Shown: positions 3,711-5,578 of the stretch, piece after piece | Position numbering within the stretch: position 1 is the stretch's first letter | How the letters are laid out: each line of letters opens with the position of its first letter | Assembly: GCA_015233515.1 (NCBI GenBank) | Contig: JADFXS010000196.1 | Span: 1 to 5,578, forward strand | DNA from: Deltaproteobacteria bacterium | GTDB lineage: Bacteria; Desulfobacterota; Desulfarculia; Adiutricales; JAGVGV01 | Direction of reading: 5' to 3' | Length of the DNA: 5,578 nucleotides | Made by a program: the position numbers and the translations under genes | The notes under the pieces: generated by a model | The model's database searches: none | Seen by the model: the letters and a program-made list of their open reading frames with translations, nothing else | What the model was told of the DNA's origin: nothing

Positions 3711-3811
3711 CAAGCCGAATGGCAATAAAATTCTAATAAAATAAATTTATTGGAACTGGCGGCGAGTCGTGACGTATATGAAGTCCGAGTAGGTTAATCT
3801 CCTGCTCTGAA

Positions 3812-3827
3812 GCTAACGACGGTCAGC
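3812..3827 (-). other. Small hairpin after the candidate 6S RNA
   Basis: The minus strand reads GCTGAC, CGTC, GTTAGC: six pairs (one G-U) around a 4-nt loop. It follows the 3' arm of the long RNA hairpin and could be part of that RNA or of its maturation signal. No T run follows, so it is not a convincing intrinsic terminator. Confidence 0.45.
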
Positions 3828-3829
3828 GG

Positions 3830-3994
3830 GAGCCTGTAAGCGGCCCCGAGAAATCAAATCGGATACCAGCCGTTTTCCTGGATATTTAGGTTATGAGTTT
3901 ATAATCAGCTCATATTCCGATATGGTCCGGCTAAGTGTCACCTCGTGTTTCCTCCGAGATAATTTGATCCGCGTGCAGTCTGGAGCCACACGAA
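3830..3994 (-). ncRNA. ssrS: Candidate 6S RNA (structured RNA between zapA and rny)
   Basis: No reading frame fills the nearly 400-base zapA-rny gap, but the minus strand folds into one long nested hairpin. Helices are 3962-3968 with 3853-3859 (7 pairs), 3953-3956 with 3860-3863 (4), 3928-3934 with 3866-3872 (7, two G-U) and 3909-3914 with 3892-3897 (6, 11-nt loop). A closing stem pairs 3982-3989 with 3840-3847 and can extend outward. A large one-sided unpaired region (about 3935-3952) sits in the middle. A rod of about 165-185 nt with an asymmetric central bubble is the 6S design, an RNA that mimics an open promoter and binds sigma70 RNA polymerase in stationary phase. zapA-ssrS is a known proteobacterial linkage. 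TATATA at 4001-4006 would place a start near 3994, but no good -35 is visible. Sequence identity was not confirmed and ends are approximate; another structured leader of rny is possible. Confidence 0.5.
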
Positions 3995-4059
3995 GCCACG
4001 TATATAAATGCCACCAAGCCGTGGATATTTGGTTGTTTTTTTCTGACCATCAATATATG

Positions 4060-4401
4060 TCAAGACCGGCGCGCCGGGTCGTTACGATTTTCTAAACCGG
4101 AATCCGCCTGTGAAAGAGATGCATCTATTTTATCCGACAAAGAGGCCGTCACTGCTTCGATCTGGCTCCGTAACTTTTCCAGATCTTCCTTGGCCTGAAA
4201 ATAATCGGTCGCGGCTTTAAACGCCACCATGACCGCCAGATCGCCGGCGTTCCAACCATGGGAACTTTCGGGAAAACGGGATACTTGGCTGTTGAGATAC
4301 TCCGCTATCCGGCGAACCTTCTCCTCTTGATCACTCCTGATGCTATATTCCTTGTTCAGGATTTTGACATTGACCAGAGTTTGACTTGCGCGGTCCGTCA
4401 A
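4060..4401 (-). CDS. zapA: Cell division protein ZapA
   Basis: ZapA is a small cytoplasmic protein that binds FtsZ and bundles its protofilaments, stabilising the division ring. The 113 residues match the family. The N-terminal globular part shows VNVKILNKEYSIRSDQEEKV (about 10-29) and IAEYLNSQV, followed by the long helix DLAVMVAFKAATDYFQAKEDLEKLR (about 54-78) that forms the dimer and tetramer coiled coil. The charged tail after about residue 90 is poorly conserved. The start is TTG 4401-4399, overlapping the TGA of the upstream coiled-coil gene as TTGA. No ATG lies in frame before the conserved region and no clear ribosome site precedes the TTG, so translation probably depends on coupling to the upstream gene. 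It shares the promoter at 4676-4704. No terminator follows the stop, so transcripts may continue into the structured RNA and rny. Confidence 0.93.
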   Translation of the reverse strand: MTDRASQTLVNVKILNKEYSIRSDQEEKVRRIAEYLNSQVSRFPESSHGWNAGDLAVMVAFKAATDYFQAKEDLEKLRSQIEAVTASLSDKIDASLSQADSGLENRNDPARRS

Positions 4402-5279: not shown

Positions 5280-5342
5280 GTAAAAAACGATGCAACGAGG
5301 TCGTTTCAAATTACCATGCCCCGCCTGCCGAGGTAGGTTAAG

Positions 5343-5353
5343 TGTCATTTCGA
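5343..5353 (+). repeat. Short partial copy of repeat family B
   Basis: TGTCATTTCGA here repeats exactly the first 11 bases of the element at 5406, in direct orientation and 63 bases away. The following sequence differs, so this looks like a decayed or partial copy. Confidence 0.5.
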
Positions 5354-5405: not shown

Positions 5406-5433
5406 TGTCATTTCGACCGAAGGGAGAAATCTC
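5406..5433 (+). repeat. Dispersed intergenic repeat, family B
   Basis: The segment begins TGTCATTTCGACCGAAGG and ends GAGAAATCTC. ATTTC at 5410-5414 can pair with GAAAT at 5426-5430. I recognise this type of sequence as a common intergenic repeat in environmental bacterial genomes. It directly precedes the two-hairpin element at 5440. Confidence 0.55.
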
Positions 5434-5439
5434 CTGTCC

Positions 5440-5485
5440 GCCGCGTAGCGGCTGAAGGATGGTAGCCGTGGGTTTCAACCCACGG
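5440..5485 (+). repeat. REP-like two-hairpin element, copy 1
   Basis: Order on the plus strand: mini-hairpin GCCGC-GTA-GCGGC (5440-5452), 9-nt linker TGAAGGATG, GTAG foot (5462-5465), then main hairpin CCGTGGGT-TTCA-ACCCACGG (5466-5485) with 8 perfect pairs. Copy 2 at 5533-5578 has exactly the same 46-base layout on the other strand. A GTAG tetranucleotide at the 5' foot of a hairpin is the recognition mark of REP elements acted on by RAYT transposases. No such transposase is in this window. Confidence 0.8.
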
Positions 5486-5493
5486 GTTGGTTA

Positions 5494-5506
5494 GTCGCTA
5501 CGCGAC
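5494..5506. repeat. Isolated GTA/TAC mini-hairpin between the two elements
   Basis: GTCGC-TAC-GCGAC forms 5 perfect pairs around TAC (GTA on the other strand), the same design as the first hairpin of both two-hairpin elements. CGCTACGCG within it is the exact inverse of CGCGTAGCG at 5442-5450, so copy 1 is bracketed by inverted mini-hairpins. Confidence 0.7.
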
Positions 5507-5532
5507 AAAAAGTTATACATGCAAAACGATTT

Positions 5533-5578
5533 CCCGGCGATGAATCGCCGGGCTACAAGCCTGCAGCCCCTACGGGGC
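5533..5578 (-). repeat. REP-like two-hairpin element, copy 2 (inverted)
   Basis: Read on the minus strand from 5578: GCCCC-GTA-GGGGC (5578-5566), linker TGCAGGCTT, GTAG (5556-5553), then CCCGGCGA-TTCA-TCGCCGGG (5552-5533). Length and spacing equal copy 1. Of the 16 main-stem bases most differ from copy 1, yet all eight pairs are kept. The element reaches the last base of the window, so further repeat units may follow outside. Confidence 0.8.

Follow-up and report, generated by a model that had tools for sequence, protein, structure and literature searches.

A mirrored pair of two-hairpin repeats as a probable non-autonomous element served by a subclass 1.2 Y1 transposase

The window analysed here, i.e., the whole 5578-base stretch of contig JADFXS010000196.1, encodes on its minus strand a Cache-domain protein, a split CheR, RNase Y, ZapA and a UPF0047 protein, and carries at its right-hand end a pair of inverted 46-nt repeats (copy A, 5440-5485, plus strand; copy B, 5578-5533, minus strand). 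The pair is intergenic, upstream of the UPF0047 gene, and reaches the end of the window; the nearest open reading frame (ORF) of at least 80 aa stops at 5336, and no transposase was found among the genes of the window. The reading that we favour, with a probability of roughly 0.86, is that the pair is a non-autonomous element of the REPIN type (an inverted doublet of repetitive extragenic palindromes, REPs) or miniature inverted-repeat transposable element (MITE) type, whose two-hairpin ends a TnpA_Y1 subclass 1.2 transposase (Y1, HuH) would recognize. In the case of the window, the grounds for this reading are shape, pairing and relatives. In the relatives, as judged from their sequences, such ends border a transposase gene, gene-less pairs occur, some of these are internal deletions, and the stems covary.

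Each copy is composed, from the outside inwards, of a small hairpin, a linker, a GTAG foot and a main hairpin, so that copy A reads GCCGC-GTA-GCGGC, 9 nt, GTAG and CCGTGGGT-TTCA-ACCCACGG, and copy B reads GCCCC-GTA-GGGGC, 9 nt, GTAG and CCCGGCGA-TTCA-TCGCCGGG. Sequence and folds thus bear out a preliminary description of the locus as two inverted 46-base copies with one architecture. The copies are identical in 33 of 46 columns; when they were read against each other, both sides were changed in four of the eight main-stem pairs and in one of the five small-stem pairs, and none of the 13 pairs was broken. Perfect pairing despite changed stems, including one pair of the small stem, had been claimed and holds with these five compensated pairs; the main stems do differ, as was also claimed, but to call them largely different is slightly too strong, since half of their pairs do so. 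Compared with shuffles, single copies gave z values of -3.1 and -2.6 when folded as RNA and of -5.1 and -4.1 when folded as DNA, and the 9-nt linker of copy B is able to pair in the RNA fold. A GTAG-anchored scan of 824,108 bases, made up of the window and 80 RNase Y loci, returned six matches, namely the two window copies and four of other geometries, and the exact window geometry was absent from the 818,530 control bases. A looser scan matched 27 times in these control bases, therefore single loose matches carry little weight; it also gave a third, different match in the window at 1993-2039. The pair has two inverted copies, a GTAG foot and an intergenic place, as a REPIN does, and the REP-like organization that had been proposed for it is confirmed.

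Two models were used, R1 built from the two window copies and R2 from 11 modules, window copies included. R1 was applied to 297 genomes from the phylum of a Desulfobacca metagenome-assembled genome; a later sample comprised 395 genomes. In the genome scans the best candidates were scored per genome, up to 150 with R2 and 20 with the Rfam model described below, so that the counts are lower bounds. R1 matched in at least 9 of the 297 genomes at E <= 0.001, and R2 gave at least 119 matches at E <= 1e-4, in 13 of the 14 genomes scanned. Among the R2 matches listed, an inverted partner lay no more than 800 nt away for 59 of 119, and neighbouring matches formed 29 inverted versus 3 tandem pairs. The small hairpins are on the outside in genomes G236, G258, G161 and G401 and in one pair of G196. 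Covariation was scored on 11 four-base-loop modules (two from the window) out of 19, picked for having hairpins, a choice that leans towards structure: both sides were changed at 10 of the 13 pairs, 91.6% of the cells pair, and the score was 0.606, where 500 shuffles averaged 0.189 and none came as high; the number of pair types was reached by 12 of the 500. A second, hand-written set of 20 modules was picked for the same feature and leans the same way. As to location, 25 of the 31 match loci with full flanks (from 53, L155-L207) lay outside ORFs of at least 120 aa, and ORF coverage would predict about 21.5 inside. Of the points that the preliminary description suggested checking, covarying stems, an intergenic place and pairing of the copies are supported.

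In G236 an inverted pair (L085/L127), 639 bp across, encloses a gene for a 150-aa Y1_Tnp protein. The main hairpin of copy B is one compensated pair (G-C to A-T) apart from the one beside this gene, a near-identity that weighs for the transposon reading. The G236 enzyme matched Pfam PF01797 (Y1_Tnp) with 96.9 bits, its sequence relatives in the PDB include the ISHp608 transposase and other transposases, and with the NCBIfam models it scored 66 bits for IS200 (cut-off 55) and 27.6 bits for RAYT (cut-off 80). A Y1 gene flanked by the element, which had been anticipated as RAYT-type, hence exists in relatives, but it is IS200-like and not a RAYT. Homologues of this enzyme at E <= 1e-20 numbered 6949 among 6986 candidates. 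Fifteen homologue loci were compared, 12 of them from the Desulfobacterota search and all but the broken G258 copy at 34-57% identity; the signature Y---Q--HH was observed at 14 of the 15 (the exception is the broken L128), WQ in 10 of 10 aligned transposase rows, and the enzyme length is about 150 aa. In the sections of Quentin 2018 (PMC6006769) consulted, Y---Q--HH is the signature of TnpA_Y1 subclass 1.2, and the transposase of the relatives would belong there by this motif. According to the same sections, the search was automatic and used GT[AG]G rules, some classes being inspected by hand as well, and subclass 1.2 is generally without terminal hairpins; this last point is at odds with most of the 12 loci from Desulfobacterota and with one copy from Bacteroidota, whereas two Bernardetia copies agree.

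The ends of the transposase-bearing copies were analysed by eye, by a descriptor and with R2. Three hairpins per side were read at L127, L129, L138, L143 (a Persicobacter plasmid) and L221, in an order that runs from an outer small hairpin over 11-14 nt to the 8-bp main hairpin, and from there over some 20-30 nt to an inner small hairpin and the gene, followed by the mirror image. The 11-14-nt spacer starts with CT(A/G) outward from the main hairpin, and the stem sequences vary between families of these copies. A strict perfect-pair descriptor placed a main and an outer hairpin, the main one nearer the gene, on 11 of 28 flank sides (two of the 30 were too short), against a shuffle mean of 0.03; the reverse order occurred on 4 of 28, two of these being the same hairpins re-read. 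With R2 at E <= 0.01, a match within 170 nt of the gene was found at 12 of the 15 subclass 1.2 loci, the nearest one 12 to 168 nt away, and at 9 of 12 without the model donors L127, L128 and L143 (direct or near-identical copies). At this threshold R2 matched none of the 24 control loci with a RAYT or another Y1 gene (one scored 0.027) and none of the 80 RNase Y loci. Matches on both sides with a gene-proximal main hairpin were observed at L127, L143, L144, L149 and L150; one side of L146 was weak (0.016), and L152 was matched on both sides in the opposite layout. The transposase copy of G066 shares its layout with G066 pairs of about 195 bp, and the repeats are closely similar. Among plasmids, transposase copies were found in Persicobacter and Bernardetia only, and none was found in the viral contigs and phages searched. 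A pair in G274 about 840 bp across (L084/L093) had no Y1 gene among the frames between its ends and was left out of the support. On a Bernardetia plasmid (L142, 996-1168) a subclass 1.2 tnpA is preceded by four GTTGC-NNN-GCAAC hairpins without a main hairpin, which are perhaps another end type of these enzymes.

Among the copies without the gene, L082 (G258), L086 (G161) and L094 (G258) retain scraps of tnpA between both ends, with three different internal deletions. L094 and the full G236 copy occupy one site, as shown by two alignments (1870 bp at 80% and 1396 bp at 76%) spanning both flanks, therefore this insertion is full in G236 and internally deleted in G258. Of five other orthologous sites looked at, those of G410, G161, G031 and G017 have a short intergenic region to which no part of the element aligned, and that of G411 holds other DNA. 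In G401 at least 20 R2 matches fell in 14 loci. The transposase copy of this genome (L221) has on both sides an outer hairpin, 9 nt, GTAG (one side) or ATAG (the other) and an 8-bp hairpin; linker, tetranucleotide and 8-bp hairpin are those of the window geometry, but the loops differ, being of 3 nt in L221. With a looser descriptor, the 13 G401 loci without the gene had both mirrored ends in 10 cases and one end in three, and at least one end each is given, as the loci were chosen by R2 match. By reading, six of them (L211, L212, L216, L217, L218 and L220) have L221 stems at both ends, with two inner hairpins fused head to head. A second G401 family (L208-L210, L213 and L214) has CCCGGCGA/CCCGGCAA stems, like copy B of the window: L208 is identical to copy B in main hairpin and GTAG, and both ends of L213 share one main hairpin flanked by small hairpins, much like window 5440-5506. 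Ends are thus shared with an autonomous copy by L082, L086 and L094 (with L127) and by the six fused loci (with L221); the window shares with autonomous copies the shape and the near-identical main hairpin of copy B only. The deletion copies look like the origin of REPINs from insertion sequences (ISs), which the consulted part of Bertels and Rainey 2011 (PMC3116915) proposes as one possibility.

The small hairpin in front of GTAG had been regarded as a feature that might define a distinct family. This did not stand, because the shape is already catalogued in Rfam as Acido-Lenti-1 (RF01687). An all-Rfam scan of the whole window at E <= 1 gave RF01687 as its single match, at 5533-5578 (copy B, E 0.011). 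The model aligned to copy A over positions 1-46 and to copy B over 1-45 of its 46, with no non-standard pairs marked; in a scan of a smaller stretch the scores were 27.7 and 25.4 bits, below the gathering cut-off of 37, and the two copies are therefore not formal members. The model and the window pair are alike in their 46 positions, an 8-bp hairpin with a 4-nt loop, CTA, a spacer and a 5-bp hairpin with a 3-nt loop; they are unlike in stems and loops, and in that Rfam classes the family as an sRNA, its strand being the reverse of the one on which GTAG is read. Since RF01687 was built independently of the present analysis, it serves as a model test free of the window copies. It matched at least 10 of the 297 genomes at E <= 1e-4, at least seven of them above the cut-off, which was reached by relatives L082 (39.0 bits), L138 (37.0), L139 (39.2) and L083 (44.7). 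A match adjoins the transposase gene in G027, G125, G174 and G258, above the cut-off only in G027 among these, and in G029 an above-cut-off match adjoins the gene in the opposite facing. Members at or over the cut-off are therefore found beside subclass 1.2 tnpA in G027 (L138) and G029 (L139), and within the tnpA deletion copy L082. L081, the sole RF01687 match in the first 24 genomes, has the foot CTGG instead of CTAC and was dropped. In the 297 genomes, those with RF01687 and those with TnpA at E <= 1e-20 (8 of 297) share five (P 7.3e-7), and with G066 added from the 395-genome sample, if the 297 are taken as part of it, six of nine are shared (P 1.9e-8), kinship being ignored in both values. 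The name Acido-Lenti-1 occurs in three papers of the open PMC literature, and among the titles and abstract openings listed from it none ties Acido-Lenti-1 to a transposase or gives subclass 1.2 two-hairpin ends.

We propose that the mirrored ends would act as compound single-strand hairpin signals, each made of the outer 5-bp hairpin, about 9 nt, the GTAG foot and the 8-bp main hairpin. A strand exposed in replication or repair may fold, a TnpA dimer may bind both folded ends, the GTAG/ATAG tetranucleotide would, like its counterparts in IS608 and REPs, guide the enzyme to where it cleaves, and the element would be cut and rejoined as single-stranded DNA (ssDNA). These steps are modelled on IS608 and TnpA_REP, for which the consulted parts of PMC8266576 and PMC6006769 describe strand-specific recognition of folded ssDNA, a tetranucleotide guide 5′ of the hairpin, cleavage and religation, and mobilization in trans. 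Gene-less copies would then spread in trans, and their stems would be free to drift while pairing is kept. The small hairpins could, as a guess, be part of the recognition signal or keep the two ends in register. Acido-Lenti-1 in these lineages at least would be a transposon end and not an RNA gene. We lean, with distinctly less assurance than for the window pair, towards the wider proposal that the whole of Acido-Lenti-1 is the compound DNA end of widespread, unrecognised single-strand transposons of subclass 1.2 rather than an RNA family, each end carrying two hairpins and one GTAG/ATAG guide, and that REPIN-like elements were born by internal IS deletion in several lineages.

Several observations weigh against the transposon reading. 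The weakest R1 genomes (G150, G211, G275 and G276) were doubtful by eye, R1 matched the control locus L115 (E 0.008), and the layout is the opposite one, with the main hairpin outside, in G066, G094 and G174. Three of the 15 TnpA loci had no module at E <= 0.01, i.e., two Bernardetia copies and L148 (0.011, about 470 nt off), and the sole module near the L147 gene faces the wrong way. No G401 transposase copy was seen with the stems of the second family, those like copy B. G094 (with R1, R2 and RF01687 matches) and G102 (with at least 15 RF01687 matches) had no subclass 1.2 TnpA at E <= 1e-5, and G161 and G274 carry only weaker Y1 relatives; in G094 and G102 either the transposase was lost or is missing from the assembly, or another Y1 enzyme moves the element. 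The window copies stay below the RF01687 cut-off, and the genome-overlap P values must be read with kinship in mind. Finally, the target palindrome AAGCGCTAACTTAANTTAGCGCTT was found as an empty site in none of three genomes, and exact borders and target site were not found.

Of the other explanations, the one embodied in the Rfam type ('Gene; sRNA') is that Acido-Lenti-1 is a non-coding RNA, so that a folded transcript acting in trans would account for the conserved structure. The consulted part of Weinberg 2010 (PMC2864571), which reports the motif from Acidobacteria and Lentisphaerae, enters it as RNA 'y' and cis-regulatory 'n', the stems are stable when folded as RNA, and a 2026 Tannerella paper (PMC13298647), in the part seen, states that its function is little known and suggests a regulatory role; in the portion seen of a Vibrio paper (PMC10059132) the name appears in annotation. 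However, the pairs are mostly inverted among the matches listed, therefore a sense and an antisense form would share one transcript, copies lie at the borders of transposase genes and of internal deletions of these, and presence at one site varies among related genomes. As a weaker point, DNA folding exceeds shuffles by more than RNA folding does. We consider the RNA explanation very unlikely for the window pair.

It is similarly hard to credit that the pair is an ordinary GTAG REP or REPIN moved by a class 2 RAYT (TnpA_REP), with the small hairpin as an accessory of the lineage. The GTAG immediately 5′ of an 8-bp hairpin, the inverted pair and the intergenic place agree with the REP organization given in the consulted parts of Bertels and Rainey 2011 (PMC3116915) and Di Nocera 2013 (PMC3733652), the RAYT model NF047646 matched in seven of the nine R1-match genomes (in four above its cut-off), and the L115 match and the two genomes without a subclass 1.2 enzyme would fit as well. 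The contrast between 0 of the 24 Y1 control loci, RAYTs included, and 12 of 15 subclass 1.2 loci with an R2 module speaks against this, as does the G236 flanked enzyme, which passes the IS200 model and fails the RAYT one, and a class 2 RAYT is not supported as the partner enzyme. That coincidental palindromes or neighbouring terminator hairpins produced the pattern is the least credible alternative: single hairpins are common, and the window has other palindromic repeats at 1664-1688 and 2016-2043, but an identical geometry occurs twice, mirrored and with compensated stems, both copies match the independently built RF01687, the exact geometry is missing from the control bases, and related copies were found in other genomes. 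The preferred reading remains that of a non-autonomous element with two-hairpin ends.

The features of the pair are collected in Table 1. The small hairpin at 5494-5506 can be taken for an inner hairpin of the end or, alternatively, for the distal half of a double unit that has collapsed. The window ends precisely where the outer hairpin of copy B does, at 5578, which would fit an assembly break at the repeat. The sequence TGTCATTTCGA is present twice, at 5343-5353 and 5406-5434, 63 nt apart; its second copy continues as TGTCATTTCGACCGAAGGGAGAAATCTCC and is repeat-like, immediately left of the element. The palindromes at 2016-2043 and 1664-1688, of the form ATAGGGGCGAAAAATTTTTCGCCCCTAC (the latter imperfect and without the left foot), resemble the 'double foot' REPs described for TnpA_REP subclass 2.4 in the consulted part of Quentin 2018 (PMC6006769). 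A repeat of about 135 bp in G236 (L117, about 2716-2851, G236:C126), CATTCCTGCGCAAGCAGGAATCCAG ... GGATTCCCG ... CGGGAATGACG, has many copies among the matches listed in G236, G161, G412, G016 and G410, with up to 21 candidates scored per genome. Among the genes, CheR (701-1571) lies in two overlapping frames, 1065-1571 and 701-1189, and is therefore frameshifted or carries a sequencing error. The zapA-rny intergenic region is often the site of 6S RNA in related bacteria; in the window (3720-4060) no Rfam family matched it at E <= 1. The best RNase Y relative among the 80 best loci has 70% identity, therefore no close relative of the window was found; where the title names a taxon, these loci are from Desulfobacterota/Deltaproteobacteria.

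Table 1. Parts of the repeat pair at the right-hand end of the window.
Feature	Positions	Strand	Evidence
End A outer small hairpin, 5 bp, loop GTA	5440..5452	+	Sequence, folds
End A 9-nt linker	5453..5461	+	Sequence; L221, the transposase copy of G401, has a linker of equal length
End A GTAG foot, putative guide-like tetranucleotide	5462..5465	+	Sequence; GTAG/ATAG likewise placed in transposase-flanking copies
End A main hairpin, 8 bp, loop TTCA	5466..5485	+	Folds; RF01687 at 5439-5485, minus strand, 27.7 bits
Third small hairpin, GTCGC-TAC-GCGAC	5494..5506		Sequence; R1 and R2 match 5466-5506, plus strand, 26.4 and 23.9 bits
26-nt interior separating both ends	5507..5532		No overlapping ORF of at least 80 aa
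End B main hairpin, 8 bp, loop TTCA on the minus strand	5533..5552	-	Folds; RF01687 at 5533-5578, plus strand, 25.4 bits
End B GTAG foot (plus strand CTAC)	5553..5556	-	Sequence
End B 9-nt linker	5557..5565	-	Sequence
End B outer small hairpin, 5 bp, loop GTA, forming the last bases of the window	5566..5578	-	Sequence

If the proposal is right, subclass 1.2, described as generally without end structures, gains a probable DNA substrate, and an 'sRNA' of Rfam, still reported by annotation pipelines, becomes a transposon end. The orthologous site that is full in one genome and internally deleted in another would provide natural intermediates for REPIN-like repeats arising from insertion sequences, and the compound two-hairpin end is a new recognition rule that can be tested.

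When compared with known mobile elements, the pair resembles the REPs and REPINs served by RAYTs in its GTAG foot 5′ of a hairpin, its inverted doublets, its intergenic place and the Y1 enzyme of its relatives; it differs in the extra hairpin 9 nt from the foot, often with a third one inside, and in that the enzyme of the relatives is IS200-like. IS200/IS605 elements have one hairpin per end. With IS608 and ISDra2, as far as the consulted descriptions go, the relatives share a Y1 transposase, subterminal hairpins and a tetranucleotide 5′ of the hairpin foot, but they have two or three hairpins per end instead of one and near mirror-image ends. TnpB is too large to be encoded beside tnpA in an element of about 640-670 bp; the ends of the transposase-bearing relatives are this far apart, therefore there is no room for tnpB as well. 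The TIRYTs, in the consulted part of Di Nocera 2013 (PMC3733652), consist of Y1 genes set between longer inverted structures, part of which are self-complementary, and in this they are similar to the relatives described here; their consensus is GGGGWSAS, and 20 of 26 TIRYT enzymes belong to subclass 2.1 according to the consulted part of Quentin 2018 (PMC6006769), whereas the enzyme of the relatives would be of subclass 1.2.
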